Shown: positions 2,633 to 34,670, counted from the first letter of the stretch. The stretch: DNA of 44,609 nt from Acidobacteria bacterium Ga0077522 (GCA_001464065.1 LNDN01000014.1:1-44609); one strand, 5' to 3'. The notes: generated by a model not told the origin, from the sequence alone. Translations and numbers: made by a program.

Positions 2633-2650
2633 ACCAAGGCCCGCCCCGCA

Positions 2651-2678
2651 CTGCATTGTGAATTCTGCATTGTGAATT
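2651..2678. repeat. 14-bp direct repeat, two copies
   Basis: Two adjacent copies of CTGCATTGTGAATT. The second copy runs into the stop codon (2677-2679) of the amidase gene on the minus strand, so the repeat defines where that protein ends. The region is AT-rich compared with its surroundings. Confidence 0.95.
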
Positions 2679-3468: not shown

Positions 3469-3505
3469 GTCGCGTTCCAGTCCTTTCGGTCGTCGAGGGC
3501 CGCGG

Positions 3506-7700: not shown

Positions 7701-10700
7701 ATGTCCTCGTCTCCGACTCCCGAAGCGCCCGTGCTGGCCACCGTCGATGGCAACGAGGCGGCGGCCAGCGTCGCCTACCGTCTCAACGAGGTCTGCGCGA
7801 TCTATCCGATCACGCCGTCGTCCACGATGGCCGAACTCGCCGACCAGTGGTCGGGCGAGCGACGTCCGAACATCTGGGGCGACATCCCGACGGTGGTCGA
7901 GATGCAGAGCGAGGGCGGCGCCGCCGGAGCCGTGCACGGCGCGCTGCAGGGCGGAGCGCTCACGACGACGTTCACGGCGTCGCAGGGCCTGCTGCTGATG
8001 ATTCCGAACATGTACAAGATTGCCGGCGAGCTGACGCCGGCGGTCTTCCATGTCGCGGCCCGCGCGCTGGCGTCACATGCGCTCTCGATCTTCGGCGACC
8101 ACCAGGACGTGATGGCGGTGCGCGCCACCGGGTTCGCCCAGTTGGCCTCGGCGTCCGTGCAGGAAGCACACGACCTGGCCGCCATCGCGCAGATGGCCAC
8201 CCTCGAGTCGCGGGTGCCGTTCGTGCACTTCTTCGACGGCTTCCGCACCTCGCACGAGATCACCCGCATCCAGATGCTCTCGGACGACGACCTGCGGGCG
8301 CTGATCGACACCTCGCTGATCACGGCGCATCGGCAACGGTCACTCAGTCCCGACCACCCGTTCATTCGCGGCACGGCCCAGAACCCCGACGTCTACTTCC
8401 AGATGCGCGAGGCGGCCAATGCCATCCACGCCCGCGTGCCGGCGGTGGTCGAGGCGGCGATGGCCCGCTTCGCCGCACGGACGGGACGCGCCTACCACCT
8501 CGTGGAGTACCACGGCGCACCCGACGCGGAACGCGTCATCGTGCTCATGGGCTCCGGCGTCGGCGCGGCCGCCGAGGCGGTCGAGGCCCTGGTGGCACGC
8601 GGCGCGAAGGTCGGCGTGCTGCACCTGCGGCTGTATCGCCCCTTCCCCGCGGCCAGACTGCTCGAGGCGTTGCCGGCCAGCGTGCGGACCATCGCCGTGC
8701 TCGATCGCACCAAGGAACCGGGCGCCAACGGCGAACCGCTCTACCTCGACGTCGTGGCCGCCCTGGCCGACGGTGTGGCGCGGGGCCTGCGGCCGACGAT
8801 GCCGCGCGTGGTCGGCGGCCGGTACGGCTTGTCGTCCAAGGAGTTCACCCCGGCCATGGTCGCGGCCGTGTTCGACGAGATCGCACGGCCGCAGCCGCGA
8901 TCCGGGTTCACCGTCGGCATCACCGACGATGTCAACGGCACCAGCCTGGCGGTGGACGACACCTTCACCACCGAGCACGAGGATGTGTTCAGGGCGGTGT
9001 TCTACGGGCTCGGCGCCGACGGCACGGTGGGCGCCAACAAGAACACGATCAAGATCATCGGTGAGGACCCGGACGTCCACGTCCAGGCGTACTTCGTCTA
9101 CGACTCCAAGAAGTCCGGGTCACAGACGGTGTCGCACCTGCGCTTCGGACCGCGGCCGATCCAGTCCACCTACCTCGTGCGCGAGGCGCAGTTCATCGGG
9201 TGCCACCAGTTCCAGTTCATCGAGAAGGTGGACGTGCTGACGCTGGCCGCCAGGGGCGCCACGTTGCTGCTCAACAGCGTGCACGACGCGGCGACGGTCT
9301 GGGAGTACCTGCCGCGCGAGGTGCAGGACCGGATCGTCGAACGCGGCATGTCGGTGTGGGTGATCGACGCCAACAAGGTCGCGCGCGCCGTCGGCCTCGG
9401 CGGCCACACCAACAGCGTGCTGCAGACGTGCTTCTTCGCCGTGTCGGGCGTGCTGCCGCGCGAGCGGGCCATCGAAAAGATCAAGAAGGCCATCGAGAAG
9501 ACCTACCGCAGCAAGGGCGCAGAGGTCGTGCGCAAGAACTTCGAGGCCGTCGATCGCACGATCGAGGCCCTGGCGCGGGTGGACGTGCCGATGCACGCCT
9601 CCGGCACCCGCCGCATGCTGCCGATCGTCGCCGCTGGCGCCCCGGCGTTCGTCACCGACGTTGTCGCCGAGATGCTGGCAGGGCGAGGCGATCAGCTGCC
9701 GGTGAGCGCGTTCCCCATCGACGGCACCTTCCCGAGCGCGACCTCACGCTGGGAGAAGCGCGGCATCTCCGACACGGCGCCGGTGTGGGAGCCCTCGCTG
9801 TGCATCCAGTGCGGCAACTGCTCGTTCGTGTGTCCGCACGCGGTGATCCGCACGCGGGTGTACGGCGCGAACAGGCTCGAGGGCGCGCCCGAGGGCTTCA
9901 GGAGCGCACGCATCGAGGCCCGAGGCTTCCCCGACAGCCGCTACACCCTGCAGATCTACGAGGAGGACTGCACCGGCTGCACGCTGTGCGTCGACGTCTG
10001 CCCGGTGAAGGATCCGTCCGAGAGCGGCCGACGCGCCATCAACATGGCGACCCGCGCCCTCGACCCCGCCCCGGCCCGCGCACAGGTGGCCTTCTTCGAG
10101 ACGCTGCCGGTGACCGAGCGCGGCCACGTGGACTTCTCGACAGTGCGTGGCACACAGCTGCTCGAGCCGCTGTTCGAGTTCTCCGGCGCCTGTGCCGGCT
10201 GCGGCGAGACACCGTACCTGAAGCTGGTCTCGCAGCTGTTCGGCGATCGCATGGTGGTGGCCAACGCGACTGGCTGCTCGTCCATCTACGGCGGCAACCT
10301 GCCGACGACGCCGTGGGCGACCAACCACGAGGGCCGCGGTCCGGCGTGGGCCAACTCGCTGTTCGAAGACAACGCCGAGTTCGGGCTCGGCATGCGGCTG
10401 GCCGCCGACCACCAGCTCGCGGCCGCGCGGCGCCTGCTTGCGGTGCTGCGGCCGCAGATCGGCGAGGACCTGGTCGACGACCTGATCAACGCCCCGCAGC
10501 GCACCGAGTTCGACATTCGCCAGCAGCGGGGCCGGGTGGCCGAGCTGCTCGATCGCCTGGGCGCCGTGCAGCACGCGCTGGTGCCGACCCTCGCCGCGGT
10601 GGCGGGGCAACTGGTGCGGCGCAGCGTCTGGATCATCGGCGGCGACGGCTGGGCCTACGACATCGGATCGGGAGGCCTCGATCACGTCCTGGCCAGCGGA

Positions 10701-11264
10701 CGCGACGTCAACGTCCTCGTGCTCGACACCGAGGTCTACTCCAACACGGGCGGACAGGCCTCCAAGTCGACGCCGCTCGGTGCGGCCGCCAAGTTCGCGA
10801 GCGCCGGCAAGCAGACCGAGAAGAAGGACCTCGCCATGCAGGCGATGGCCTACGGCCATGTCTACGTGGCTCGCGTCGCCATGGGCGCCAACCCGCAACA
10901 GACGCTCGATGCGCTGCGCGAGGCCGAAGCCTACGAGGGACCGTCGCTCGTGCTGGCCTATTCGCACTGCATCGCGCACGGCATCGACATGACGCAGGGC
11001 CTGCACCAGCAGGACCGCGCCGTGCACTCGGGCTACTGGCCGCTCGTGCGGTACAACCCCGAGTTGCGCGCCGCCGGCGAACGTCCGTTCACGCTCGACT
11101 CGGTGCGCCCGACGATCCCGTTCCGGACCTATGCCGAGCAGGAGCTGCGCTATCGCATGCTGCTCCTGAGCGACCCCGTCCGCGGCGAGGCCCTGCTCCG
11201 CCAGGCGCAGGAGGCCGTGACCCGCAAGTGGAAGCAGTACGAAGACCTCGCGGAGTTGAGGTAG
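7701..11264 (+). CDS. nifJ: Pyruvate:ferredoxin (flavodoxin) oxidoreductase
   Basis: Single-chain, 1187-residue PFOR that interconverts pyruvate + CoA and acetyl-CoA + CO2 with a low-potential carrier. It has the YPITPSS pyrimidine-domain motif at about residue 35. Two ferredoxin clusters follow: CIQCGNCSFVC from Cys701 and CTGCTLCVDVC from Cys757. The third-cluster cysteines include CAGCGE (from Cys831) and Cys1090 in YSHCIAHG. The TPP-binding region begins with GGDGWAYDIG near 980 and includes a TEVYSNTGGQ loop. Length and domain order match NifJ. The ATG at 7701 begins just before the first conserved strand. It is followed after three bases by the dihydroorotate-dehydrogenase-like gene, so all three genes form an operon. 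NifJ here need not be nitrogen-fixation related. Confidence 0.95.
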   Translation: MSSSPTPEAPVLATVDGNEAAASVAYRLNEVCAIYPITPSSTMAELADQWSGERRPNIWGDIPTVVEMQSEGGAAGAVHGALQGGALTTTFTASQGLLLMIPNMYKIAGELTPAVFHVAARALASHALSIFGDHQDVMAVRATGFAQLASASVQEAHDLAAIAQMATLESRVPFVHFFDGFRTSHEITRIQMLSDDDLRALIDTSLITAHRQRSLSPDHPFIRGTAQNPDVYFQMREAANAIHARVPAVVEAAMARFAARTGRAYHLVEYHGAPDAERVIVLMGSGVGAAAEAVEALVARGAKVGVLHLRLYRPFPAARLLEALPASVRTIAVLDRTKEPGANGEPLYLDVVAALADGVARGLRPTMPRVVGGRYGLSSKEFTPAMVAAVFDEIARPQPRSGFTVGITDDVNGTSLAVDDTFTTEHEDVFRAVFYGLGADGTVGANKNTIKIIGEDPDVHVQAYFVYDSKKSGSQTVSHLRFGPRPIQSTYLVREAQFIGCHQFQFIEKVDVLTLAARGATLLLNSVHDAATVWEYLPREVQDRIVERGMSVWVIDANKVARAVGLGGHTNSVLQTCFFAVSGVLPRERAIEKIKKAIEKTYRSKGAEVVRKNFEAVDRTIEALARVDVPMHASGTRRMLPIVAAGAPAFVTDVVAEMLAGRGDQLPVSAFPIDGTFPSATSRWEKRGISDTAPVWEPSLCIQCGNCSFVCPHAVIRTRVYGANRLEGAPEGFRSARIEARGFPDSRYTLQIYEEDCTGCTLCVDVCPVKDPSESGRRAINMATRALDPAPARAQVAFFETLPVTERGHVDFSTVRGTQLLEPLFEFSGACAGCGETPYLKLVSQLFGDRMVVANATGCSSIYGGNLPTTPWATNHEGRGPAWANSLFEDNAEFGLGMRLAADHQLAAARRLLAVLRPQIGEDLVDDLINAPQRTEFDIRQQRGRVAELLDRLGAVQHALVPTLAAVAGQLVRRSVWIIGGDGWAYDIGSGGLDHVLASGRDVNVLVLDTEVYSNTGGQASKSTPLGAAAKFASAGKQTEKKDLAMQAMAYGHVYVARVAMGANPQQTLDALREAEAYEGPSLVLAYSHCIAHGIDMTQGLHQQDRAVHSGYWPLVRYNPELRAAGERPFTLDSVRPTIPFRTYAEQELRYRMLLLSDPVRGEALLRQAQEAVTRKWKQYEDLAELR

Positions 11265-11267
11265 CTC

Positions 11268-12263
11268 ATGCCGGATCTCTCCACCACCTATCTCGGCCTC
11301 CCGCTGCAGCACCCGATCGTCGCCTCGGCGGGACCGATCTCGCAGTCGCTCGACGGCATCCGCCGCCTCGAGGACGGCGGCGCCGCCGCCATCGTGCTCT
11401 TCTCGCTGTTCGAGGAGCAGATCCGTCTCGAGAACGCTGCCATCGACCGCCTGATGGCCGTCGGCGCCGACAGCTCCGGCGAGGCCAGCAGCTACTTCCC
11501 CCCGATGGGCGACTTCGCTGCCGGCCCGGAGGCGTACCTGACGATCGTCCGGCAGGCGCGCCAGGCCGTCCGCGTGCCGATCATCGCCAGCCTCAACGGC
11601 TCCACGCCCGATGGCTGGGTCGACTACGCGCGGCAACTGCATGACGCCGGCGCGCACGCCATCGAGCTGAACCTCTTCCACATCCCGGCGGACCTCGACG
11701 CGACGGGCCGTGACGTCGAGCAGCGCTACGAAGACGTCGTGCGCTCGGTCTGCAGCGCCGTGCCGATCCCGGTGGCGGTGAAGATCAGCCCCTACTTCAG
11801 TGCGCTCGGCGAGATGGCTCGCCGTTTCGTGCAGGCGGGCGCGCGTGGGCTGGTGCTCTTCAATCGCTTCTACCAGCCGGACTTCGATCTCGATCGGATG
11901 GAGGTGACGCCGTCGCTCGAGCTGAGCGCCCCGACCGAGATCCGCCTCCCGCTGCTCTGGCTGGCCGTCCTGCGCGGGCGGCTCGAGGCGTCGCTGGCCG
12001 CCACCACGGGCGTCCACTCGCACCTCGAAGCGGCCAAGTATCTGCTGGCCGGCGCCGACGTGGTGATGACGACATCGGCGGTGCTCAAGCACGGGCCAGG
12101 TCACCTCGCGGTGATCCGAGCCGACCTCGATCGGTGGATGGACTCGAAGGGGTTCGCCTCGGTCGCGCAGATCCGCGGCTCGATGAGCCAGCAGCACGTC
12201 GCCGACCCGACGGCGTTCGAGCGGGCCAACTACATCAAGATTCTTCAGAGCTGGCGGGCGTAG
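11268..12263 (+). CDS. Dihydroorotate dehydrogenase-like flavoprotein
   Basis: A 331-residue TIM-barrel protein of the class 1 dihydroorotate dehydrogenase superfamily. It starts with the LGLPLQHPIVASAGP strand and has ASLNGS, ELNLFHIP, VAVKISPY and a C-terminal phosphate-binding region (TGVHSHLEAAKYLLAGADVVMTTSA), consistent with FMN binding. The usual catalytic Cys/Ser loop of PyrD is not evident, and the gene sits in a PFOR operon rather than with pyrimidine genes. It is therefore probably a redox partner or has another substrate. GAGG at 11258-11261 serves as its ribosome site inside the end of nifJ. Its 3' end overlaps that of the convergent phosphatase gene by 29 bases. Confidence 0.85.
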   Translation: MPDLSTTYLGLPLQHPIVASAGPISQSLDGIRRLEDGGAAAIVLFSLFEEQIRLENAAIDRLMAVGADSSGEASSYFPPMGDFAAGPEAYLTIVRQARQAVRVPIIASLNGSTPDGWVDYARQLHDAGAHAIELNLFHIPADLDATGRDVEQRYEDVVRSVCSAVPIPVAVKISPYFSALGEMARRFVQAGARGLVLFNRFYQPDFDLDRMEVTPSLELSAPTEIRLPLLWLAVLRGRLEASLAATTGVHSHLEAAKYLLAGADVVMTTSAVLKHGPGHLAVIRADLDRWMDSKGFASVAQIRGSMSQQHVADPTAFERANYIKILQSWRA

Positions 12264-13143
12264 GGCGGGCCTGGTCGCCGAGCGGGCCGTCGGTCGGCAG
12301 CGGCCGGATGTCGCCTGCGGGCCGTGGCGCCCACGAGCCGAGCCGGTTGCGCAGGACGTGCCACAGGGCCGGCCCCGGCGGTGCGTCCACGACCTCCGCC
12401 ACGAACAGACTGACGTCGTCGTGCGTCAGCACCGACGACCCCGTGTGCGCGACCAGACCGGCACGCAGGTGGTCGACCAGGGCCGCGTGGGGGCCCTCGA
12501 ACTCGCCGAGCAGCCGGGCGAGTCCCGCCTGCCCGAGTTCCTCGCCGTCTGGCGACGTCGCCTCGAGCACCCCGTCGGTCAGCAACAGGAGGCGGTCGCC
12601 CTGGCTCGTCGGGATGCGGCGACGCGTGAACCCCGGGGCCAGCCCCGTGCCGAGCGGCAGGCCGACCGGCCCGCGCGACGACGACCGCGCCGGCTCAGGA
12701 TCGATGGGGGCCCACGTCCCGGAGGCTGCGGTGTAGAGCCAGGCCGGGGGATGGCCCGCGTACGACACCGTCAGCCTACGGCTCGGCGGGTAGTAGGTGA
12801 CCATGACCGCCGTGGTGATGGTGGCCAGCGGGGTCGTGCTGACGCGACGGTCGATCGCGCGCAGCACCCGGCGCTCGTCCATCGTGTCGACGCTACGGCG
12901 CAACTGGCCGTACATCTCGCGCCCGACGGCGGCCACGGCGTCGCCGTGGCCCGCCACATCAGCCAGGCACACGCGCGTCAGCAGGCCCGACCCGCACACC
13001 GAGAGGTAGTGGATGTCGCCGCCGTGCGGCCCGTCACAGGCGCTCGAGTACAGCGTGCCTTCGAGGCCGGGCAGGTCGATGGCGGCATGCACCACCTGGT
13101 TGCCACCCCGCACCTCGCCGCACGCCAGTCCGGTGTTTCCCAC
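12235..13143 (-). CDS. SpoIIE-type PP2C serine/threonine phosphatase
   Basis: A 302-residue stand-alone SpoIIE-like phosphatase. Metal-binding motifs typical of the family are visible: CDGPHGGDIHYL near the N-terminus, CLADVAGHGDAVA, a central VSYAGHPPAWLY strand, LLLLTDGVLEA, and a late HDDVSLFV. Such proteins dephosphorylate anti-sigma-factor antagonists or other phosphoproteins; no sensor or kinase domain is fused here. The start is a GTG at 13143; a shorter GTG start about 15 codons in is possible. It is the last gene of a co-oriented set after the SGNH-DUF1080 gene (gap 66 bases). No anti-sigma antagonist (STAS) gene is next to it, so the substrate is unknown. Confidence 0.85.
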   Translation of the reverse strand: MGNTGLACGEVRGGNQVVHAAIDLPGLEGTLYSSACDGPHGGDIHYLSVCGSGLLTRVCLADVAGHGDAVAAVGREMYGQLRRSVDTMDERRVLRAIDRRVSTTPLATITTAVMVTYYPPSRRLTVSYAGHPPAWLYTAASGTWAPIDPEPARSSSRGPVGLPLGTGLAPGFTRRRIPTSQGDRLLLLTDGVLEATSPDGEELGQAGLARLLGEFEGPHAALVDHLRAGLVAHTGSSVLTHDDVSLFVAEVVDAPPGPALWHVLRNRLGSWAPRPAGDIRPLPTDGPLGDQARPTPASSEES

Positions 13144-13209
13144 GTTGGTTTGATGCCCCGTGCCCCCGTGGCGTTCCCACGCGGCGGTGGGTCTGGCGGG
13201 AGCGTCTGC

Positions 13210-14598
13210 CTACCTGCCCGACGCGAGACGGATGCGCCGGTACTCCATCTGGCCGCGGTCGGCTTCGAGCCCGATGCCGCCGCTTGGCGGCACCTTGAAC
13301 GCCTTCTCGATGACCTCGCCATTGCAGGTGACGACGGCCGTCTCGCCGGTCACGGTGATGACGAGTTCGTTCCACTCCTGCGGCCGGTAGCTGGCCAGCG
13401 TCGTGTACGGGCCCGACAGGCGATAGTCGCGGACCTGCAGCTGCGGGCCGCGCAGGAAGACGCCGCCATCGGCGTACGGCGTGGCCCGGAACTCCAGTTT
13501 CAGCACGAAATCGCCGTCGAAGGTCTTCGTCGTCCAGAGCTGCTGCACCTTGCGACCTTCCGGCGGCGTGACCGCCACGATGTGGTCGCCGATGACGCGC
13601 CAGCGCTGGTCCACACTCGACGTCCGGCCATCGAAGGACACCGGCGCGTCGACGAAGGGCCACAGCGCCGCGTTGGGATCGGAGGCCTGCCACTTCGCCG
13701 CGACCGCCTTCTCCTGCTCGGTGGTCGCTCGATAGCCCCAGCCGGTGAGATCGCGCCCGTTGAACAGGGCCGTGAAGCCGTCCTCCACCGCGAACGTGCC
13801 GGGCACCGGCGCGAGCAGACCCGTGGCCTCGAGCACCGGACGCAGCGCCGCCGCCCATCGGGCGTAGCCGGCGTCGTTGAGGTGCAACAGGTCGGGAAAC
13901 TCCGCGATCGGGGCATCGCCCTCGGCGTCGGCCCAGAGTCGCCACGTGTCGACGGGCGTCACCTGCGGGTCGTTCTTCACGAGCGCCAGCAACCGCGCGT
14001 TGGTCTCCTTGATCAACGGCGACGGCCGCTTCATCTTCGCCGAGCTCGGGAACACCTGGCAGAGGATGATCGGCAGCCGCGGGTTGTGGTTGCGCAGGGC
14101 CGACAGGATCGACCGCACGTTGCTCTCGACGACGTCCGGACGGGCGCCCTCTTCCAGATCGTTGGTGCCGATGAGCAGCACCACCCCACGCGGGTTGAGC
14201 GCGATCACATCGTCCTGCAGGCGCAGCAGGACGCCGCGCGTGGTGTCGCCGCTGATGCCGCGGTTGGCCACCTTCATGCCTGGAAAGGCCTGCGGCAGGC
14301 GGTCGTTCCAGCCCTGGGTGATCGAGTCGCCGAGCAGGACGACCGCGCCCTGATCGGCCGCCACGTTGGTCGCCCATGCCGTGCGCTTGTCATGCCAGAG
14401 CTTGCGGAACCAGGTGTAGCGACGCAACGGCCCCACGCCGGGCAGACCATCGTCGTTGGCCGGGATGTCGAGCCGATCGACTGGCGCCGCCGCAGCCGTC
14501 GTGGTCTGCGCCCGTGCGGTCGGCGCGAGTGCCGGTGCCACGAGCAGGGCGCCCAGGGCGAGAGAGACGACGGGACCTGACCACCGGCTGGTGCGCAT
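13210..14598 (-). CDS. Secreted SGNH/GDSL hydrolase fused to a DUF1080 domain
   Basis: A 462-residue exported protein. A signal peptide (about residues 1-31, ending TARAQ) is followed by an SGNH esterase domain with GDSITQG at 90-96 (Ser92), an N-G block (NRGISGD), GTND at 144-147 and the DLLHLND catalytic Asp/His block. From about residue 255 a DUF1080 (3-keto-disaccharide hydrolase, concanavalin-like) domain begins with FTALFNGRDLTGW and contains FDGDFVLKLEFR and GGVFLRGPQLQV. The combination suggests removal of an ester group plus sugar cleavage or binding on one polysaccharide. The ATG at 14598 is preferred over a GTG two codons upstream. It lies 21 bases after the tail-sheath gene. Confidence 0.85.
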   Translation of the reverse strand: MRTSRWSGPVVSLALGALLVAPALAPTARAQTTTAAAAPVDRLDIPANDDGLPGVGPLRRYTWFRKLWHDKRTAWATNVAADQGAVVLLGDSITQGWNDRLPQAFPGMKVANRGISGDTTRGVLLRLQDDVIALNPRGVVLLIGTNDLEEGARPDVVESNVRSILSALRNHNPRLPIILCQVFPSSAKMKRPSPLIKETNARLLALVKNDPQVTPVDTWRLWADAEGDAPIAEFPDLLHLNDAGYARWAAALRPVLEATGLLAPVPGTFAVEDGFTALFNGRDLTGWGYRATTEQEKAVAAKWQASDPNAALWPFVDAPVSFDGRTSSVDQRWRVIGDHIVAVTPPEGRKVQQLWTTKTFDGDFVLKLEFRATPYADGGVFLRGPQLQVRDYRLSGPYTTLASYRPQEWNELVITVTGETAVVTCNGEVIEKAFKVPPSGGIGLEADRGQMEYRRIRLASGR

Positions 14599-14619
14599 GG
14601 CCACAGAGGATACCGGATG

Positions 14620-15837
14620 CTAGCGACGGTGGCGCACGCGCACCGTGAGCACGACGAACTCGGCCGGCCTGAGCGGCGCCACGCCGATCACCAGGTGGGT
14701 CACGCCCTGGTCGACGTCGTCCTGCGTGGTGGTGGAGGCATCGCAGCGGACGAAGCAGGCCTCGGCAGGGGTGCGGCCCTGCAACGCGCCGCGGCGGAAC
14801 AGCTCGATCAGGAACATCTCGACGTCGAGTCGCAGCGCCTGCCAGAGCCGGGGTCCGGACGCCTCGACGCTGGCCCACTGCACCCCGCGCGTGACACTCG
14901 CCTCGATGAACAGCGCCAGCCGGCGCACCGGCACGTACTTCCACTCGGAGGCGAGGGCATCGGCGCCTCGCAGCGTTCGGGCGCCCCACACGACGTGGCC
15001 GCCCGGGAAGGTGCGCAGCCCGTTGATGCCGGCCACGTTGAGCAGCGACTGTTCCGCGTCGTCCAGACGCACCGAGAGCGCGTCCACCCCCTCGAATCGC
15101 GCCTCGAGCCCTGCTGGGGCCTTCCACACGCCACGATGCGCGTCGATGCGGGCATAGATCCCCGCCACCGCACCGCTCGGCGCGAAGGTCGCCACCGCGC
15201 CCGGCGTCAGGGGATCGGGACAGCGCAGGCGCGGAAAGTGCAACACGGCGTTGGCGCACGCGTCATGTGGCGAGACGAGCGCCTCGAGCGCGGCGGGCGA
15301 CCGTGCCTCGGCGATGCCCCATGTCTCGGGCGGGTCGACGAGGACCATCGCCCCCCGCTGGAAGGCGTAGGCGATGGCGGCATCCCAGGTCGCGCGATCG
15401 ACGTCCACGCCGAACCGGAACGGCGGGATGCAGATCAGGTTCACGTCGTCGCACGCGTCGAGCATCCACAGGCCGCGCCGGCCGGCCTGGAGCGTGGGGT
15501 CCGACACGTGGAGCGCCTCGAGCGGACGCCCGTCGGTGTCGATGTTGCAGATGACGGCCTGGCGGCCGCCGTTGCGGAAGAAGTGCAGCACCGCGACGCC
15601 CAGCGGGCTCTCCGTCCACGGCCCGCCGTAGATCTGGACGAACTCCTGCGCCGACCGCACCACGCCCGGCACGCCCGTCGGACCGGTCCGGCACCGACCG
15701 ATGAAGGCGGTGACGTCGGTGGACACACCGGTGATCGGACCACGGGGTGGTGGCTGCTCGACGACAACCTCGGGGTGCTCTTCGTGTGCTGGAATCGCCG
15801 CCTCCCGCCCGCGGACCGCATGCGCAGGCTCATGCAT
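14620..15837 (-). CDS. Contractile tail-sheath protein (phage/eCIS type), orphan
   Basis: A 405-residue member of the phage tail-sheath family that forms the contractile outer tube of myophages, R-tailocins and extracellular contractile injection systems. The N-terminal part has the sheath opening GPITGVSTDVTAFIG (about residues 33-47). The middle has an NAVLHFPRL strand and FAPSGAVAGIYAR. The C-terminal domain has WKAPAG, GLRTFPGGHVVWGARTL, WKYVPVRRLALFIE and GVAPLRPAEFVVLTV, all strongly sheath-like. The ATG at 15837 is chosen because residues upstream of it look non-coding and would reach the divergent methyltransferase start. No tube, baseplate, spike, AAA+ or terminator gene is near; the following gene is an SGNH hydrolase 21 bases on. 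Family call is firm; role is open. Confidence 0.85.
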   Translation of the reverse strand: MHEPAHAVRGREAAIPAHEEHPEVVVEQPPPRGPITGVSTDVTAFIGRCRTGPTGVPGVVRSAQEFVQIYGGPWTESPLGVAVLHFFRNGGRQAVICNIDTDGRPLEALHVSDPTLQAGRRGLWMLDACDDVNLICIPPFRFGVDVDRATWDAAIAYAFQRGAMVLVDPPETWGIAEARSPAALEALVSPHDACANAVLHFPRLRCPDPLTPGAVATFAPSGAVAGIYARIDAHRGVWKAPAGLEARFEGVDALSVRLDDAEQSLLNVAGINGLRTFPGGHVVWGARTLRGADALASEWKYVPVRRLALFIEASVTRGVQWASVEASGPRLWQALRLDVEMFLIELFRRGALQGRTPAEACFVRCDASTTTQDDVDQGVTHLVIGVAPLRPAEFVVLTVRVRHRR

Positions 15838-24705: not shown

Positions 24706-26103
24706 ATGCGACTGGTACTGGCGGGAGCCGCGGCGGGGGCCATGGGCTGGGGCATCCGCGGGCAGTACGGACACGAGACCGGCGCGATGATTGCCGGCCT
24801 GCTCGTGTCGCTGGTGATCGTCCTCGGTATCCGTCCCGACGCGAGTCGGCACGCGGCACTCCGAGCGGTCGCCTTCGGGACGATCGGCGTCGGCTTCGGC
24901 GGCGCGATGACCTACGGCCAGACGCTGGGGCTGTCACACGATCCGGCACTGGTCGGGCACTGGGACGCCCTCCGCTGGAGCCTCCTCGGCGTCGCCCTCA
25001 AGGGCGCCGTGTGGATCGGGTGGTTCGGCGCCTGCCTCGGCATGGGGCTGAGCCCGGTGCGCTATCGCGCCCGCGAGATGGCGCTCCTGATGCTCGCGCT
25101 CGTGGGCGCCACCTTCGTCGGCACGTGGCTCTTCAACGCCCCGTTCGACCCCGACGCGCGCGTGCTGCCTCACCTCTACTTCTCCGCCGACTGGCACTGG
25201 CAGCCTGACGCGCCGTCGCTGACGCCGCGCCGCGAAGTCTGGGGTGGACTGCTCGTGGCCCTGGTCGCCCTCGCCGGCTACGTCCGCGTCGTCCGTCGTG
25301 ATGCCGCGACGCTCCGCCTGCTGCGCTGGGGGGTGGTCGGCGGCGGCCTCGGGTTTCCCCTCGGGCAGAGCCTGCAGGCCTGGCATGCGTGGAACCCCGA
25401 GATGTTCGCCTCCGGCGTGTGGGCCAGCCTGGACCCGCACATCAATTGGTGGAACACGATGGAGACGACCTTCGGCGCCGTGATGGGGGCCGCGGTCACC
25501 TGGGGCGCCTGGCGCCATCGCCACGCGTGGGCCCCCATGACGACGCCCGCCGTGACGTCGCTGCCTGCCGGATTCGAATGGGTCGGGATCACGACGCACG
25601 TCGTGCTGCTGGTGCTGGCCGAGTTCACCGACGTCCCGGTCCTCGGTCGCTACGCCGACATCACGCTCCTGATGGGGGTGCTGCCGCTCGTCCTGGTCGC
25701 CGAGGGACGATGGGCGCCGGCGGTGCTGGCGTTGCCGGGGACGCTGCTCCCGATCGCCGGCAAGACGGTGCGTCGTCTCGTGTACGAGGAACAGGCCATC
25801 GCTCCCCTGGCCGGATGGTTGCTGTACGCGGTGGTGCCCCTGGCGCTGATGGGCGCCGCGGCGTGGTGGCTGACGCGGCGGCGAGACCTGGAAGACGAGA
25901 CCGGGCGGGGCGCCCGCCGTGACGTCCGCCGGGCCCTGCTGCTGGCGACCTGGACCTGCGTCGCGCTCAACTTCGCGTTCTTCGCGTATCCGTGGCCCTG
26001 GGCGCCCTGGACGACCCGGACGCTGCACGCGCTGGTGTTCTTCGCGTGTGCCGGGGTGGTGACGTGGGTGTCACGGGACGGCGAGTTCCTCCACCCAGGG
26101 TGA
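24706..26103 (+). CDS. Polytopic membrane protein of unknown function
   Basis: A 465-residue protein with about ten to twelve hydrophobic segments spread along its length and short charged loops, so it is an inner-membrane protein. The N-terminus has a Gly-rich opening (AGAMGWGIRGQYGHETGAM) repeated in spirit at GGGLGFPLGQSLQ. A conserved-looking HINWWNTMETTFG loop lies mid-protein. I cannot assign a transport or enzyme family. The ATG at 24706 is preferred, with GGGGA five bases upstream; a GTG at 24667 is possible but lacks a ribosome site. Its 3' end overlaps the convergent anti-sigma gene by 33 bases. Confidence 0.75.
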   Translation: MRLVLAGAAAGAMGWGIRGQYGHETGAMIAGLLVSLVIVLGIRPDASRHAALRAVAFGTIGVGFGGAMTYGQTLGLSHDPALVGHWDALRWSLLGVALKGAVWIGWFGACLGMGLSPVRYRAREMALLMLALVGATFVGTWLFNAPFDPDARVLPHLYFSADWHWQPDAPSLTPRREVWGGLLVALVALAGYVRVVRRDAATLRLLRWGVVGGGLGFPLGQSLQAWHAWNPEMFASGVWASLDPHINWWNTMETTFGAVMGAAVTWGAWRHRHAWAPMTTPAVTSLPAGFEWVGITTHVVLLVLAEFTDVPVLGRYADITLLMGVLPLVLVAEGRWAPAVLALPGTLLPIAGKTVRRLVYEEQAIAPLAGWLLYAVVPLALMGAAAWWLTRRRDLEDETGRGARRDVRRALLLATWTCVALNFAFFAYPWPWAPWTTRTLHALVFFACAGVVTWVSRDGEFLHPG

Positions 26104-26973
26104 GGCGCCTTCGATCGCACGCAGACGGGCGAGGGCGCGCTGCACGGCCGCGTCGTCGCCGTCGAGCATCGCCACTCTGGCGAGATTGAACCAGCCTTCG
26201 GGGCGAGAGGCATCGGCCGCCGTGGCGCGCTCGGCGAGGCGCCGCGCTTCCTGCCGGGCCTGGACGTCGCTGGTGGTCTGCGCCTTCTGCAGCCAGGCCG
26301 CGGCGGCGTCGTTGAGGACGGCGACATCGTCCGGCCTCGCGGCGACGGCCTGGGACAGGACCGTGATGGCGCCGTCGATGTCGCCAGCCACCAGCAGCGC
26401 CACGCCGTAGGCATGCCGGCTGGCCGCGTCGGTGCGCTCGCGACGGGCCGCCTCGACGGCGGCGGCGGCGTCGAGCAGGGACAGGGAGGCGTCCGACGAC
26501 GCCGGGCCGCCCGAGCGCGTGGTCGGCGGCTCAGGTGCGTGCCCGAAGCTCGTCAACCGGCCGTGCACGGGGCGCACGTCCACGTGTGCGGCACGCAGGG
26601 CCTCGAGCCCGGGGCCGGCATCGCGCCACTGACGCAGCGCCGCCGCACCGCCGATGACGACCACCAGTGATGCGGCCACCGGGACCATCCAGCGCATCAG
26701 TTGGCGCGGCCGGACAGGTGGCGGCTCCACGGGGGCGGGAGGAGCGGGAAACGGGAGGGGGGCGCCGCGCCCCTCCACCAACGCGGGGTCCGGCAGGTCA
26801 GGGACGATCGCGGCGAGCAGTTCGACGCACGCGTCGCAGTCGGCCATGTGCGTCTCGACGCGCGCCCGCTCTTCGACCGACAGCTGGTCGTCGAGGTAGG
26901 CCGCCATCTCCTCGTCGCTCGGACAGGCCGTGGCGCCGAGCGTCCCGCGATCGTGTTCCCTGCCTATCGTCAT
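26071..26973 (-). CDS. Zinc-finger anti-sigma factor with TPR-like output domain
   Basis: A 300-residue membrane protein. The N-terminal cytosolic part holds the anti-sigma zinc-finger motif HMADCDAC (H-x3-C-x2-C) preceded by the EEMAAYLDDQLS helix typical of these factors. A Pro-rich linker, one membrane segment (about 94-113) and an extracytoplasmic part with TPR-like helices (HAYGVALLVAGDIDGAI, EGWFNLARVAMLDGDD) follow. It probably holds the sigma factor encoded just upstream and releases it on an envelope signal. Its ATG overlaps the sigma gene stop (ATGA), a usual arrangement for such pairs. Confidence 0.85.
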   Translation of the reverse strand: MTIGREHDRGTLGATACPSDEEMAAYLDDQLSVEERARVETHMADCDACVELLAAIVPDLPDPALVEGRGAPLPFPAPPAPVEPPPVRPRQLMRWMVPVAASLVVVIGGAAALRQWRDAGPGLEALRAAHVDVRPVHGRLTSFGHAPEPPTTRSGGPASSDASLSLLDAAAAVEAARRERTDAASRHAYGVALLVAGDIDGAITVLSQAVAARPDDVAVLNDAAAAWLQKAQTTSDVQARQEARRLAERATAADASRPEGWFNLARVAMLDGDDAAVQRALARLRAIEGASPWVEELAVP

Positions 26974-28054: not shown

Positions 28055-28999
28055 ATGCGACTCCTTCCCACTCTCCTGGTGGGCGTCGCGCTGCTCCTTG
28101 GCGGCGCCGCCCACTCGCTGGCCGACACGAAGGCCTTCGTCGGCCGCTGGAACATCCAGCCCACCGATGGCACGCCGGGCGTCTACTGGCTCGAGGTGAC
28201 CGACGCGGGCGGCGCCCTCGAAGGCAGGTTCCTCAATCGCGGCGGCAGCCCCGTGAAGCTGGCCTCGGTCGTCGTCGCCGGCAACGAGCTGCGCTTCACG
28301 ACGGCCGCGGCGGGCACCACCCCCGGCCAGACCCATACGGCCACGGTCAAGGACGGCACGCTCGTCGGTTCGGTGACGCTCGGCGACCGCACCGTGAAGT
28401 GGGTGGGCACGCGCCCGCCGACCTGGGCCCCGGCCAACGCCAACGGGGCACACACCTTTGGCACTCCCGTCGTGCTCGTCGATGGCACGTCGCTCGAGGG
28501 CTGGAAGGGCCAGCGCGCCAACCAGCCGCTCAACTGGGTGGCCGACGCCGGCGCCCTCACCAACGGGGAGAAGGCCAACAACCTGGTCTCGACCCGGACC
28601 TTCAGGGACTTCCGGATTCAGGCCGAGTACAAGGTCGCCGAGAAGAGCAACAGCGGCATCTACCTGCGCGGGCGCTACGAGCTGCAGGTGCTGGATGATT
28701 TCGGCAAGGCGCCCGAAGAGCACCAGCACATGGCGATCTACGCGTGGACCAAACCGGCCGTCAACGCCAGCAAGCCGGCCGGCGAATGGCAGACGATGGA
28801 GGCGACGATCGTCGGCAACAAGGTGACGGTGGTGCTCAACGGCACGACCGTGCACGACAACGCCACCATCCAGGCGATCACCGGTGGCGCGCTCGATGCC
28901 CACGAGGACCAGCCGGGCCCGATCATGCTGCAGGGCGACCACGGCAAGGTGTGGTTCCGCAAGGTGGTCGTGACCCCGATCACGAAGGCCGGACGCTAG
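28055..28999 (+). CDS. Secreted DUF1080 (3-keto-disaccharide hydrolase-like) protein
   Basis: A 314-residue exported protein with a signal peptide (about 1-23, HSLA-D). An N-terminal beta domain of about 100 residues (FVGRWNIQPTDG, YWLEVTDAGG) is followed by a DUF1080 domain starting near VVLVDGTSLEGWKG. That domain has FRDFRIQAEYKV, SNSGIYLRGRYELQVLDD, WQTMEATIVGNKVTVVLNG and GPIMLQGDHGKVWFRKV, the canonical run of the family. It probably acts on 3-keto-glycosides in the periplasm. The convergent pseudokinase gene ends in the same CTAG tetranucleotide (28996-28999), so the two stop codons overlap. Confidence 0.9.
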   Translation: MRLLPTLLVGVALLLGGAAHSLADTKAFVGRWNIQPTDGTPGVYWLEVTDAGGALEGRFLNRGGSPVKLASVVVAGNELRFTTAAAGTTPGQTHTATVKDGTLVGSVTLGDRTVKWVGTRPPTWAPANANGAHTFGTPVVLVDGTSLEGWKGQRANQPLNWVADAGALTNGEKANNLVSTRTFRDFRIQAEYKVAEKSNSGIYLRGRYELQVLDDFGKAPEEHQHMAIYAWTKPAVNASKPAGEWQTMEATIVGNKVTVVLNGTTVHDNATIQAITGGALDAHEDQPGPIMLQGDHGKVWFRKVVVTPITKAGR

Positions 29000-31806
29000 A
29001 GGGAGGCGCGCAGGGCGTCGCGTTCGCGGCGGGCCGCCGCCGCGAGCGTGAGCGACGCGTCGGCGCCGGCCCACCAGTCGAGCAGCACGTCGTAGGCCTG
29101 TGCCGCACCGGCACGGTCGCCGGAGGCGGCCAGCGCGCGCGCCAGGCCGAGCTGGGCCAGCGGCACCAGTGGCGAGAACGGGTCCGTGCCGCGGTGGTCC
29201 ACGAGCTGCCGGAACGTCCGGGCGGCTTCGGCATGGGCGCCGGCCTGCGCATACGCCTGCCCTTCCAGGTACGTCGGCGCCAGCGCCGCGATGACGCCGA
29301 ACTGATAGGGCGCCGCGGGCCGCAGCGCCTCGACCGCTTCGGCCGGACGCTGGCGCGCCAGCGCGATGGCCGCCGTCGCCACCGGCAGGTAGGCGAGGCG
29401 CAGGAACGTGTCCTCGGGGCGCACGGCGCGACGGCGGTCCACCACGGCCGCCGCGTCCTCCGGCGCCCCGGCGAGGGCCAGCGCGAACGCGGCGCGCAGC
29501 GCGGGCTCCGGGGCCGTGGAGGTGGCGGCCACCGCCCGTGCCTGCGACAGGGCGAGGCCGCGGTTGCCGTACAGCGCGTCGGTCAGCGCCAGCCACGCGC
29601 CGTACCCCGAGGCGATCTGCGGAAACTTCTGCACCTCCGCCGCCTCGACCACCTCGGCGAACAACTGACGCGCCTCGTCGAGTCTGCCGTGGAACGCCGC
29701 GTCCTGGGCCCGCGCGCCGACCATGTCGAAGCCACGGGCCCGGCTCGTCGCCCACGCCACCTGCTGCTCCGCAGCCGCGTCATCGCCGAGCACTCGCAGC
29801 ACCTGATACAGCAGCCGTCGCATCGGGACGGTCTCGAGCCGCTGGGCGATGGCCTGCTCGGCGACCACCCGGGCGTCGGCGTACCGCCCTTGCCCACGTC
29901 GCGCATGCGCGAGGTTGGAGTAGGGGAACGCGTGGGCGGGATTGCGACGCCGCGCGTCCTCGGCCTGGGCCGCCGCCCCCTCGAAATCGCCGAGCCGGTT
30001 CAGCAGCACCGCGAGCGCATTGGGGGCGCGGTAGTCACGCGGGTACGTGCGGCTCCACACCTCGAGCGCTTCCCTCGCCTGCAGCTGATCGCCCGTGACG
30101 CGGTCGTGGTACTGGTACGTGATGAAGAAGCGTTCGCGTTCGCTGACGCGCAAGCGCTTCTCGTAGGCGAGCCTGGCGTACTCCTCGCTGCGGCCGGTCT
30201 CGCCGAGGCCGCCGTACGCACTGGACAGCGTGGTGTAGGCCAGCGCGAAGCCCGGATCGGCGCGAATGGCACGTTCCAGCCAGCGGATGCCCTCCATCTC
30301 CTGGCCGGAGGCCCGGCGCGCCGCCGCCTCCGTGTAGGCCTTGAGTGCCTCCAGCGACGGTGTCGTCGCCGCTTCGATCGGCACGTTGTGCGCCGACAGC
30401 GTGGTGCGCGGTTCACCGAGCGCGGTGCGCACCGACGCCGTCAGCTCGCCGAGCACCCGCAGCACGTCTTCCTTGCGCTGCACCTCTCGCTGCTCGCGAG
30501 CGATGGTCGTGCCGTTCTCGCAATCGGTCGCCACCAGCGCGATGGCCATGCTGCGCCCGACCGACGAGACACTGCCCTCGAGCATCGCCTGCACCCCGAG
30601 CCGCTGGCAGAGCTCCGCCGCCACGTCGTGCGTCAGCGCCGAATCCGTCTGGCGCCCCATCATCTGGAGTCCGTCGCGCAGTCGTTCATCCGACACGAGA
30701 TCGAGATACGGAGATTGCCCGAGATAGACGCTGACGGCCTGGCGCAACGTGCCCTGGAAATCCGGATCGGGCGTGCCGTTGAGGATGTCGCTCAGCAGCA
30801 CGGTGTTGCGGGGGCGCGCGGCCGCAGGCCCCCCGGGCCGCCAGCCCAGCCACCAGGCCAGCACGCCGGCGCCGGCCAGCACGACGCACACACCGGCGAT
30901 GGCGGCGAGACGCGACCATGCGCCGGGCCGCCACCGACTCGAGGCGTGACGACGGACGTCGCGCAGCGCATCGAGCAGGTCCTGCGCGGAGCCGTGCCGC
31001 TGATGGGGATCCTTGGCGAGCGCCCGGTCGATGAGCGCTGCCAGGGGTGACGGCACACGACGGTTGAGGCGACGCACCGGCGTCGGCGTCGATGTCAGGA
31101 TCGCCTTGGCCAGCTCGGGCGCCGTGGCGCCGCCAAACGGCCGCACGCCCGTGGTCATCTCGTACACGACCACGCCTGTCGCGAAGACATCGCTGGCCGC
31201 GACCGGTGGATGGCCGGCCACCTGCTCGGGTGACAGGTACGGATCGCCCTCCAGGGGCGCGCCGTCGGGCGCCGACGTCTCGATGTCCACGGCCGTCGTC
31301 GCGAAGGCGCCAAGGTCGGGCGCGGAGGCGGACGCGTCCACCACGGCCGTCCCGAGTCCCAGCAGCTTGACGTGGCCGTCGGCCGTCACGCGGACGTGGC
31401 TCGGCCGCACGTGCCCATGCACGAGTCCGCGCCGGTGCACGGCGCACAGGGCGCCGGTGAGCTGGGTGGCGAGCTCGAGGGCGCGGTCGACCGTGACCGG
31501 TCCCTCGGTCAGCAGTTCGTCCAGGCGTCGTCCCGAGAGCAACTCGCGGACGACGTAGGGATGGCCGTCCTCCTCTCCCCAGTTGTGGACGGCACAGATG
31601 TGGGGGTGGGTCACCAGCGAGGCCACGTGCGCCTGCCGGCGGAAGCGATCCACCGCCTCCTGCGTCGTGTCCGGAAGCCGACGCAGGATCTGCACGGCGA
31701 CGGTGCGCTGCAGACGACTGTCGCGCGCGCGCCAGGTCTCGATCGGGCCGTCGCGTCCGATGAGCTCCAGCAACTGGTAGTGCGCGATGTGGGTGGGCGG
31801 GGTCAC
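28996..31806 (-). CDS. Predicted pseudokinase with FlgO-like/TPR tail
   Basis: A 936-residue protein with the same layout as its upstream neighbour: kinase fold (1-275), membrane segment (about 312-332), FlgO-like domain, TPR array. The kinase fold is kept (HPHICAVHNWGEEDG, LSPEQVAG, SDVFATGVVVYEMTTG) but the catalytic residues are lost. The VAIK lysine is Gln39 (AVQ), HRD is H130-G131-H132, and DFG is G150-L151-G152. The Gly-rich loop is also degraded (LIGRDGPIE). Sensor-half motifs remain very close to the neighbour's (VSERERFFITYQYHDRVTG). The reading frame is intact. It starts at a GTG that overlaps the kinase stop by four bases (GTGA), implying coupled translation. Likely a non-catalytic partner; ATP binding is doubtful. 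Confidence 0.85.
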   Translation of the reverse strand: MTPPTHIAHYQLLELIGRDGPIETWRARDSRLQRTVAVQILRRLPDTTQEAVDRFRRQAHVASLVTHPHICAVHNWGEEDGHPYVVRELLSGRRLDELLTEGPVTVDRALELATQLTGALCAVHRRGLVHGHVRPSHVRVTADGHVKLLGLGTAVVDASASAPDLGAFATTAVDIETSAPDGAPLEGDPYLSPEQVAGHPPVAASDVFATGVVVYEMTTGVRPFGGATAPELAKAILTSTPTPVRRLNRRVPSPLAALIDRALAKDPHQRHGSAQDLLDALRDVRRHASSRWRPGAWSRLAAIAGVCVVLAGAGVLAWWLGWRPGGPAAARPRNTVLLSDILNGTPDPDFQGTLRQAVSVYLGQSPYLDLVSDERLRDGLQMMGRQTDSALTHDVAAELCQRLGVQAMLEGSVSSVGRSMAIALVATDCENGTTIAREQREVQRKEDVLRVLGELTASVRTALGEPRTTLSAHNVPIEAATTPSLEALKAYTEAAARRASGQEMEGIRWLERAIRADPGFALAYTTLSSAYGGLGETGRSEEYARLAYEKRLRVSERERFFITYQYHDRVTGDQLQAREALEVWSRTYPRDYRAPNALAVLLNRLGDFEGAAAQAEDARRRNPAHAFPYSNLAHARRGQGRYADARVVAEQAIAQRLETVPMRRLLYQVLRVLGDDAAAEQQVAWATSRARGFDMVGARAQDAAFHGRLDEARQLFAEVVEAAEVQKFPQIASGYGAWLALTDALYGNRGLALSQARAVAATSTAPEPALRAAFALALAGAPEDAAAVVDRRRAVRPEDTFLRLAYLPVATAAIALARQRPAEAVEALRPAAPYQFGVIAALAPTYLEGQAYAQAGAHAEAARTFRQLVDHRGTDPFSPLVPLAQLGLARALAASGDRAGAAQAYDVLLDWWAGADASLTLAAAARRERDALRASL

Positions 31807-34670
31807 GGCAGTGGGCGACGGGTCAGGCGGTCGTACTCGTCCTGCGCCGCGCGCCGCGGCGGGAAGTCGCTGTCGGCCGCGCGCCACAGGGACAGCGCCA
31901 TCTCGTACGACGTACGGCTGGCCGTGATGTTCCCCGTGGCGGCTCTGACACGGGCGAGGCCGAGCCAGGCCAGCGGCACCATCGGCGCGTACGGGTCCGT
32001 GCCGCGATGCTGGATCAGGCGCTCGTACTCTCCGGCCGCCTGCTCCCACGCCTGCTGGGCCCGATACGCCTCGCCACGCAGATAGAGCGGCACCAGCGCC
32101 GCAAGACCGCCGGTTTCCGTCTCACGCGCTGGCTCCAGCGCCGCGACGGCGTCGGCCGCCCGGCCCGCGTGCAAGGCGAGGCCAGCCCGGATGACCGGCC
32201 CGAGCACGGTGCGGACGTAGGTCGACTCGGGCGCGTCACGCTCCGCCGTCGCGAGCAGGGCCAGCACCTCGGCCCGTCGCCCCGCCAGGGCCAGGGCGCC
32301 CAGCGCCCGGAAGCGGCTCGAGGACGCCGCCGCGTCGGTGCGGGCCGCGAAGGCCATCATGCGCTTGACGCGATCGCCGAGGTCGGGACCTGGACGGCAG
32401 ATGGCTTCCAGCCAGGCGAGATGCGCCACCTGCCCGGCAGCGTTGCCCGGGAGCCCTCGCGCCAGCGCCAGTTCGGCGGCCTGCCGATAGAGTGACTCGC
32501 CCTCGCGCCACCGCCCCTCGAACATCGCGATCTGGCCCTGCGCCGCCATGAGGTCGAACTCGCGCGGTTGCCCGCGTCCCCAGGCCAGCTGCTGTGACGC
32601 CGTCGGGTCGCCCGCCATGACGGCCAGCTGGTACAGCAGGCGCCGGGTCGGCATCGTCGCGGCATCGGCGGCCACGCCGTCGGCCGCCGTGCGCCGTGCG
32701 TCGTCGTACCGGCCGAGCCCACGGTACGCCACCACGAGGTTGGAGATGGCGAACGGGTGATTCGGGCTGCGTCGCAGCGCCTCCTGGCCGGCGGCCAGCG
32801 CCTTGTCGTACTGTCCGAGCCGGTTGTAGACGACGGCGAGCGCGTTGGCCGGGACGAAATCGCGGGGATAGGCGACCTGCCAGGCCTGCAGGGTCTCGAC
32901 CACGGCGGCCTGATTGCCGGTCACGCGATCGTGGTACTGGTAGCGGATGAAGAGACGTTCGCGTTCGCTGACGCGATTCTGGTGCGCGTAGGCCTCGCGC
33001 GCGTGTTGCTCGCTGCGATCGATCTCCCCCATCACGCCGTACACGGTGCTCAACGTCGCATGCGCCTGGGCGAAATCCGGGTCCAGCGCGATCGCCTGCT
33101 TGAAGAAGGCGATCGACTCGAGCTCGCGGCCGCGGCGGCGCTCCTCGAGGCCGAGCGCGTAGGCCTTCAGCGCCGGGAGCGACGGCGTCGTCGCATCGGC
33201 CACCGGCGTGTCGAAGCGCGTGATGGATGGCAGCGACTCGCCGAGCTGCGTGCGCATCGTCGAGGCAATGCGACCGAGTTCGACGAGGACGGCCTCGCTG
33301 TCGGCGGCTTCGGCCTGGGCCTGCGCGAGCGTTTCGCCCGTGCGACAGTCGGTGGCCGTCACCGTGAGCACGTACTGGCGGCCGAACGGCGCCAGCCCGC
33401 CGTCGATCATCGCCTTGACGCCCAGCCGCTGGCAGGTCTCGCGCGCCACGTCGTGCGTCAACCGCTCGTCGGCCGGTCGCCCCATCAGGCGCAGCGTCGC
33501 CGCGATGCGGGCATCCGGGACGATGTCGAGGAAGGGCGACTGGCCCAGCTGCACCTTCAGGGCCGTGACGAGCGTGTCGTCGAACACCGGGTTGCCCGTC
33601 GTGTTGTCGAACACGCCGACCACGAGGCTGTCGCGGTCGGTGAGCGCGGGCGCGCGCCGCGTATACCAGCCGTAGCCCAGACTCCCGGCCACCAGCAGCA
33701 GTGACGCCCCCAGCGCCGCCCAGCGCCCGGCGGCACCGGGTCGGCCAGCCGGACGCGACGGACCGACGAGCGCGCGAGGCGTGGCGCCGCTCGGCGCGTC
33801 GGCCCGCGAGAGATCGGCCAGCAGGTCGCTGGCACGCTGGTAGCGCGTCGCCGGATCGGAGGCCAGCAACTTGACGATGATGGCGTCGAGCGCACGGGGC
33901 ACCTCCGGCTGCAGCGATCGCGGCGGCACGAACACGCCGTGCGTGATCTTGCCGAGCACCTGCGCGATGTCATCGCCCTCGAAGGCGCGCCGACCGGTCG
34001 CCATCTCGTAGAGCACGCTCCCGAGCGAGAAGAGATCCGTGCGGGCATCGAGCGCGCCGCCACTGGCCTGCTCGGGCGACATGTAGAACACGGTGCCCAT
34101 CGCCATGCCCGTCTGGGTGAGATGCAGCGGACGCGCGCCAGAGGCCGCGGTGGCGCTGGTGGCCACGGGACCGGACGCCGGGGCGCCGACCATGTCCTCG
34201 CCGGTGAGCCGCGCGAGCCCGAAGTCGAGCACCTTGACGTGGTCGCCGTCGGTGACGAAGAGATTGGCCGGCTTGATGTCGCGGTGGATGATGCCGCGGC
34301 GATGGGCCGCATCGAGGGCATCGGCCACCGGGCGGGCGAGGTGCACGACGCGCCACGGCGGCATCGGCCCCTCCTCGATCAGTTCGCGGACGGTGACGCC
34401 CTCGAGTCGCTCCATGACGATGAAGGCCTGGCCGTCGTGCTCGCCGAGCTCATGTATGGTGCAGATGTGCGGGTGCTGGAGGGCGGAGGCCAGGCGGGCC
34501 TCGCGCCGGAATCGGCTCAGCCATTCCTTCGACGCGGCGGCCTCGGGGTGGAGGATCTTGATCGCGACCTCGCGCCGCAGGCGCGTATCTTCGGCGCGGT
34601 AGACCTCGCCCATGCCACCCACCCCGAGCAGGCCGAGGAGGCGATAGTGCGACAGGTAGGATGCAACCAT
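31803..34670 (-). CDS. Membrane Ser/Thr protein kinase with FlgO-like/TPR sensor
   Basis: A 955-residue Hanks-type kinase. The catalytic domain (about 9-275) has the Gly-rich loop GVGGMGEVY, VAIK with Lys38, HRDIKPAN with Asp131, DFG at 149-151, and the YMSPEQ and DLFSLGSVLYEMATG motifs, so it should be active. A membrane segment (about 323-340) leads to an extracytoplasmic FlgO-like domain (GVFDNTTGNPVFDDTLVTALKV...) and a long TPR array. The GTG of the pseudokinase overlaps its stop. A TACAAT hexamer at 34715-34720 (minus strand) could be a -10 element but no -35 matches. Substrates are not evident. Confidence 0.95.
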   Translation of the reverse strand: MVASYLSHYRLLGLLGVGGMGEVYRAEDTRLRREVAIKILHPEAAASKEWLSRFRREARLASALQHPHICTIHELGEHDGQAFIVMERLEGVTVRELIEEGPMPPWRVVHLARPVADALDAAHRRGIIHRDIKPANLFVTDGDHVKVLDFGLARLTGEDMVGAPASGPVATSATAASGARPLHLTQTGMAMGTVFYMSPEQASGGALDARTDLFSLGSVLYEMATGRRAFEGDDIAQVLGKITHGVFVPPRSLQPEVPRALDAIIVKLLASDPATRYQRASDLLADLSRADAPSGATPRALVGPSRPAGRPGAAGRWAALGASLLLVAGSLGYGWYTRRAPALTDRDSLVVGVFDNTTGNPVFDDTLVTALKVQLGQSPFLDIVPDARIAATLRLMGRPADERLTHDVARETCQRLGVKAMIDGGLAPFGRQYVLTVTATDCRTGETLAQAQAEAADSEAVLVELGRIASTMRTQLGESLPSITRFDTPVADATTPSLPALKAYALGLEERRRGRELESIAFFKQAIALDPDFAQAHATLSTVYGVMGEIDRSEQHAREAYAHQNRVSERERLFIRYQYHDRVTGNQAAVVETLQAWQVAYPRDFVPANALAVVYNRLGQYDKALAAGQEALRRSPNHPFAISNLVVAYRGLGRYDDARRTAADGVAADAATMPTRRLLYQLAVMAGDPTASQQLAWGRGQPREFDLMAAQGQIAMFEGRWREGESLYRQAAELALARGLPGNAAGQVAHLAWLEAICRPGPDLGDRVKRMMAFAARTDAAASSSRFRALGALALAGRRAEVLALLATAERDAPESTYVRTVLGPVIRAGLALHAGRAADAVAALEPARETETGGLAALVPLYLRGEAYRAQQAWEQAAGEYERLIQHRGTDPYAPMVPLAWLGLARVRAATGNITASRTSYEMALSLWRAADSDFPPRRAAQDEYDRLTRRPLP

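Follow-up and report, generated by a model that had tools for sequence, protein, structure and literature searches.

A conserved pair of adjoining TPR receptor kinase and pseudokinase genes in Acidobacteria, with a possible role of the dead paralog as partner subunit

Why would a bacterium keep a catalytically dead receptor kinase immediately behind a live paralog? The question is raised by two overlapping genes, here called A and B, on the minus strand of a 44,609-nucleotide stretch of DNA from Acidobacteria bacterium Ga0077522 (GCA_001464065.1 LNDN01000014.1:1-44609; this whole stretch is referred to as the window, and positions are counted from its first letter). A preliminary description of the window had read them as a kinase-pseudokinase pair forming a heteromeric receptor in which the dead kinase regulates the live one. 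Judged by its sequence, B is most likely a real pseudokinase of old origin that is catalytically dead, and we give about even chances to the proposal that it is the dead partner subunit of A in a mixed receptor.

The kinase gene and its pseudokinase paralog

Both genes encode a kinase-type domain, a probable transmembrane (TM) segment and a C-terminal sensor half, in that order:
31803-34670, minus strand: gene A, Hanks-type Ser/Thr kinase of 955 residues with one TM segment and a TPR-rich C-terminal half, ATG start
33801-34652, minus strand: kinase domain of A, about residues 7-290, with VAIK (K38), αC E57, HRDIKPAN (D131), DFG (D149) and SPEQ
33669-33725, minus strand: probable TM segment of A, about residues 316-334, hydropathy weak here and stronger in several orthologs
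31821-33638, minus strand: sensor half of A, an alpha/beta domain (residues 345-480) followed by TPR repeats (residues 490-950)
31803-31806, minus strand: GTGA overlap of 4 nucleotides, A stop (TGA) with B start (GTG), also present in genome G063
28996-31806, minus strand: gene B, pseudokinase paralog with the same layout as A, 936 residues, GTG start
30952-31785, minus strand: pseudokinase domain of B, about residues 8-285, with glycine loop GRDGPIET, VAVQ, αC Gln58, HGHVRPSH, GLG and a retained SPEQ
31690-31692, minus strand: Gln39 of B, at the site of the ATP-binding β3 Lys
31411-31413, minus strand: His132 of B, at the site of the HRD catalytic Asp
31357-31359, minus strand: Gly150 of B, at the site of the DFG metal-binding Asp
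30847-30909, minus strand: probable TM segment of B, about residues 300-320
29011-30810, minus strand: sensor half of B, laid out as in A and under purifying selection

Gene A has the features that define a Hanks-type Ser/Thr kinase, namely the fold (PF00069, Pkinase, 145 bits) together with the β3 Lys, αC Glu, HRD Asp and DFG Asp. The catalytic residues Lys38, Asp131 and Asp149 had been numbered exactly in the preliminary description, and αC Glu57 completes the set. B still matches PF00069 at 78 bits, PknB-family chains score best among the PDB matches even for B, and the codon-position composition of both genes is that of real genes. A pseudokinase keeps the fold and lacks at least one of the VAIK Lys, the HRD Asp and the DFG Asp; the B protein of the window lacks all three. 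The replacements reported earlier (Lys by Gln, HRD by HGH, DFG Asp by Gly) are present in B next to a retained fold and SPEQ block, and the αC Glu and the glycine loop are gone as well. The activation segment of B spans about 50 residues with SPEQ retained, and the YEM(A/T)TG block, like SPEQ, is kept in both A and B.

TPR repeats are detected by Pfam in both proteins, and in the A and B proteins checked a single hydrophobic segment precedes the sensor (weakest in the A protein of the window), which would place the sensor outside the cytoplasm. The earlier label of a FlgO sensor does not hold, as neither sensor half matches the FlgO Pfam profile even at E≤10. The predicted order of secondary-structure elements, β-α-α-α-β-β-α, is compatible with a FlgO-like fold at predicted local distance difference test (pLDDT) values mostly under 50, and in the model of the A sensor the TPR helices are of fair confidence and the alpha/beta domain of low confidence. 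The sensors had also been called strikingly alike. The VSERER...YQYHDRVTG block on which this was based is indeed present in both, but it also occurs in single-copy homologs from family f6 and, in weaker form, in distant kin, and is thus a family motif; identity between A and B in the window is 42% overall, 44-45% in the sensor half and 39.5% in the kinase half, a modest contrast. Both sensor halves match the TIGR04510 peptide-modification cyclases (A 203 bits, B 181 bits, below the cut-off of 400), so the sensor module is probably common to other signaling outputs; unlike in those proteins, the catalytic half here is a kinase and not a cyclase.

Age of the pair and constraint on the dead domain

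Genome searches covered the genus (5 genomes), the order (162), the class (193) and a sample of the phylum (396). B was found in eight genomes, G000-G003 (genus g1, family f1) and G029, G061, G062 and G063 (family f15), the two families belonging to one order. In all eight, A lies directly upstream of B on the same strand and at most 34 nucleotides away, so that no B occurs apart from an adjoining live partner, and the reading frame of B is open across the recovered stretch. For the fragmented genome G062, the assembly carries a frameshift in A, and B is divided between two contigs sharing 42 residues; in G004, A runs into the end of a 4177-base contig, and no B was found. Within the two families the pair occurs unevenly (none was found, for example, in G005, in G006 or in a number of f15 genomes), so that losses and transfer between families are indistinguishable here. 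Homologs in family f6 (G011, G042 and G033) are canonical kinases, single-copy in the stretches read. Outside f1 and f15, the loci scoring well against B (G163, G313, G280, G270, G216, G360 and G400) are all canonical kinases, which restricts B to these two families among the searched genomes; a scan of genome contigs returned one distant kinase only. The comparison of adjoining kinase pairs and their catalytic residues in related genomes, suggested in the preliminary description, thus reveals an old conserved pair and not a local one.

The full catalytic set (VAIK, HRD, DFG and αC Glu) is present in all nine A proteins. By contrast, the HRD Asp is absent from 8/8 B proteins (HGH, HGQ, HGN, HGG or HAN in its place), as is the DFG Asp (GLG, SLG or ELG), and the glycine loop is degraded to G[RQ]DG in every one; orthologs retaining the Lys/Asp/Asp set, which would have pointed to decay of B in the window only, do not occur, and none of the eight has either Asp. 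The HRD His and an APE-type motif are kept and the DFG Phe is replaced by Leu throughout, a combination compatible with a folded, active-like shape of B. The two families differ in what else remains. The f15 proteins keep the β3 Lys (Arg in G062), the αC Glu and the catalytic-loop Lys and Asn, with Glu replacing the DFG Asp, whereas genus g1 has lost all four of these residues and has no acidic residue at the DFG site either. The simplest reading is a two-step loss, in which the catalytic base and the metal ligand would have disappeared before the families split (or before a transfer between them) and the nucleotide-binding residues later in g1. As g1 lost the Lys and αC Glu that f15 keeps, ATP binding appears to have become dispensable. 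The residues retained in f15, together with the precedents of SelO and SidJ, would also suit a B protein with another catalytic activity, such as AMPylation or glutamylation, yet g1 proteins are left with no recognizable ATP or metal ligand, and we consider this explanation very improbable.

Trees calculated separately for the two halves place A in one clade and B in another (support 100 for both clades with the sensor; 99 and 100 with the kinase), which by sequence makes them separate lineages from one old duplication. The stem leading to genus g1 is long for the kinase half of B, at 0.69 compared with about 0.28 in A; for the sensor half the stems are similar (0.25 for B, about 0.34 for A). 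Within the genus, the codon-model ω is 0.036 for the A kinase, 0.062 for the B kinase, 0.060 for the A sensor and 0.069 for the B sensor, and pairwise counts give the same order (B kinase 0.12-0.30, A kinase 0.11-0.19); since synonymous sites are near saturation, all these values are comparative and not absolute. The kinase half of B is therefore held about as tightly as either sensor half, contrary to the earlier view that the sensor stayed constrained while the kinase was let go. Read together with the stem lengths, the sequences speak for a constraint on the B kinase half that shifted and was then renewed, and not for relaxation.

These data bear on two further explanations. If B were a functionless, decaying duplicate, its missing catalytic residues and the fast g1 stem of its kinase half would be accounted for, but its frames are open in all eight genomes, loss of both Asp is common to two families, ω is 0.06, and B is 74-77% identical to the window copy within the genus, against 76-79% in the case of A (in G029 both reach 56%). 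Relaxed selection or frequent frameshifts, named beforehand as marks of local decay, are thus replaced by purifying selection and intact frames; with eight orthologs and a low ω we reject local decay, to which we leave a negligible chance. B could instead act as a dominant-negative or ligand-sequestering decoy at the ligand or dimer site of A, an inhibitory variant of the heteromer proposal that would lower signaling with no need for an allosteric contact between kinase domains. The shared sensor layout, the strong constraint on the sensor half and the dead kinase are what such a decoy would look like; it would have no need of a kinase fold, yet purifying selection acts on the B kinase half nearly as strongly as on the sensor, and its frame is open in all orthologs, which makes a decoy improbable.

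The preliminary description had also called the pair translationally coupled through its 4-nucleotide overlap. The overlap is real in the window and in G063, but it is strict in only these two of the eight pairs, the others being separated by 3-34 nucleotides, so that coupling may be inferred at most and does not stand as a general feature; no clear Shine-Dalgarno sequence was noticed. Neighboring genes are partly common among the genus loci (a His_Phos_1 gene and a HEAT/DUF7133 gene). Between f1 and f15 loci, no identifiable neighbors are common other than A and B, which marks the A-B pair as the conserved unit.

Around the pair, a 3-keto-disaccharide hydrolase gene (PF06439; 28055-28999, plus strand) is convergent with B and overlaps its end by 4 nucleotides, and a gene downstream of the pair (26071-26973, minus strand) encodes a small protein that combines TPR repeats with a zinc finger of the anti-sigma type (zf-HC2). 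No hint of a substrate was found among the neighbors of the pair. A search around it for sigma-70-like promoters and terminators came up empty, which is uninformative at 71% GC.

Several other kinase genes of these genomes lie side by side. Groups of two to four neighboring TPR-type kinase genes, all with canonical residues, occur in G002 (loci L119, L120 and L121; C1:1615000-1623000 and 1914500-1940000), and a canonical kinase gene adjoins the B gene of G061 on the opposite strand (locus L098, minus-strand open reading frame 12240-14498). A tandem pair of the same receptor-kinase class in G313 (locus L110; C36:about 9200-15000) has copies 71% identical; as this pair is independent and both copies are canonical, tandem duplication recurs without loss of activity.

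Possible roles of the dead paralog

The duplication, the old catalytic loss, the purifying selection and the conserved adjacency are shown by the sequences. Conserved adjacency, old and complete loss of both Asp and present constraint together favor a B protein that acts without catalysis and in dependence on A. In this class of kinases, dimerization goes with activation, as in PknB (PMC6428115), and because both subunits descend from it, such a role is explained most economically by a heteromeric receptor. A tandem duplication of a receptor kinase would have given A and B as two halves of one signaling unit; B would then have lost catalysis stepwise, with fold, membrane anchor and sensor retained. 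Produced together with A, it would pair with A through the parts homologous in the two proteins (sensor, membrane or kinase), and whether B is occupied or empty would set the kinase activity of A, which B would keep within an active dimer or away from one. The physical contact of A and B, the way in which regulation runs, a sensor outside the cytoplasm and a ligand are conditional parts of this scheme, and its activator and inhibitor forms cannot be separated with these data.

Several observations weigh against a partner subunit. Adjacency alone is weak evidence, because tandem kinase genes with no pseudokinase are common in these genomes. Dimer contacts of the PknB type are only partly kept: in PknB numbering, A and B both conserve the counterpart of L33, and those of R10 and D76 are mostly not conserved. 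The activation loop of B varies between families. Two AlphaFold models of the window sequences, built on a two-row alignment, reach mean pLDDT of 46 and 60 and give no reliable structure. The sample is small, with eight genomes from two families and one pair cut by contig ends.

The main rival is a scaffold with no dimer, in which B is a stand-alone receptor whose dead domain recruits cytoplasmic partners, perhaps after phosphorylation by A, and the operon serves for supply. A pseudokinase domain phosphorylated by a live kinase has a precedent in MviN and PknB (PMC12599244); within the genus, a Thr-containing stretch of the activation loop, PDLGAFATTAVDI, is conserved among B proteins, and the low A-B identity in the kinase half would also suit a scaffold. 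The stretch is not conserved in f15, however, and a scaffold by itself leaves unexplained the paralogous sensor and layout and the fact that B never occurs without A. We regard it as unlikely, though well worth weighing.

The presumed partner of B can be read off the genome, as it is the next gene, a paralog, and accompanies B wherever B occurs. Some nucleotide-binding residues are left in the B proteins of f15 and none in those of g1. With this natural series, a system of two genes allows a direct test of whether ATP is required for a dead kinase to regulate a live one.

Comparison with known kinase systems

Like PknB and StkP, A has a full kinase core, a single TM segment and a C-terminal sensor half; it differs in having a TPR sensor instead of PASTA domains and a pseudokinase as partner gene. 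Membership among the PASTA kinases is rejected, with NCBIfam NF033483 scoring 304 bits for A and 185 bits for B against a cut-off of 450, and with TPR but no PASTA domains present.

Bacterial Hanks-type pseudokinases have been catalogued, with functions largely unknown, in a 2025 review that contains no mention of TPR, tandem or Acidobacteri (PMC12599244), and we compared B with the families by the features described there. Closest in setting is MviN (ActPs3) of M. tuberculosis, a membrane protein with a dead Hanks-type domain that works with the live PknB and for which back-to-back dimers are reported (PMC12599244). B is likewise a dead Hanks-type membrane protein, with a C-terminal TM feature common to both, but it lacks the activation-loop deletion, lies outside an MviN protein and is a tandem paralog of its presumed partner. 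ActPs2 (β3 Lys to Arg, HRD Asp to Asn, DFG deleted, loop insert of about 250 residues) is excluded by VAVQ, HGH, GLG and a short loop; the GLW pseudokinases (GLW for HRD) by HGH, HGN, HGG, HGQ or HAN; CP1 (no TM segment, COG3899 ATPase domain) by the TM segment and TPR; DYD (β3 Arg, DYD motif) by Gln and GLG; and DLHK (HRD Asp kept, no TM segment) by the absent Asp and the TM segment. ActPs1 (actinobacterial, helix G often absent, PQQ common) is an unlikely identity for B, which has TPR and no PQQ match. Collectively, no compared family fits B, ActPs1 not being settled by its optional features.

Regulation of a live kinase by a dead one, which the preliminary description called little described for bacterial TPR kinases, is known in bacteria for histidine kinases, DivL being a dead histidine kinase that feeds its signal to the live CckA pathway in Caulobacter (PMC5361649). 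A and B resemble this system in joining a bacterial dead kinase with a live one, but in a Hanks-type instead of a histidine-kinase fold. DivL and CckA are not known to be an adjacent tandem pair. For the Hanks type, a literature search, with subscription journals mostly outside its reach, found no paper describing an adjoining kinase-pseudokinase receptor pair.

Other degenerate kinase domains occur in the same genomes. A protein strongly conserved in three genomes of the genus, that of the window included, carries a canonical followed by a degenerate kinase domain in one polypeptide, a JAK-like live-dead tandem (L008, open reading frame 1249-3162, G000 C270:about 3600-5320; L117, minus-strand 1905-3899; L118, minus-strand 1923-3821); its second domain has VAIR, ICGITPLT for HRDxxxxN and SGG for DFG. 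The genome of the window also encodes degenerate kinases with VVVR, HGLLSPDN and no DFG (L024, G000 C167:606-1358) and with HGAIHPRD and GVG (L026, G000 C53:6062-6778).

In eukaryotes, dead receptor kinases paired with a live paralog or domain include HER3 with HER2 or EGFR and the JAK pseudokinase domains. The likeness of A and B to these systems is one of design only, and the sensor domains are different. Tentatively, and with chances somewhat short of even, A and B may be a HER2-HER3-like obligate receptor of one live and one dead Hanks-type TPR kinase that stayed together while two families diverged. Its dead subunit would allosterically switch the live one, having lost both Asp first and, in g1, its Lys and αC Glu later.

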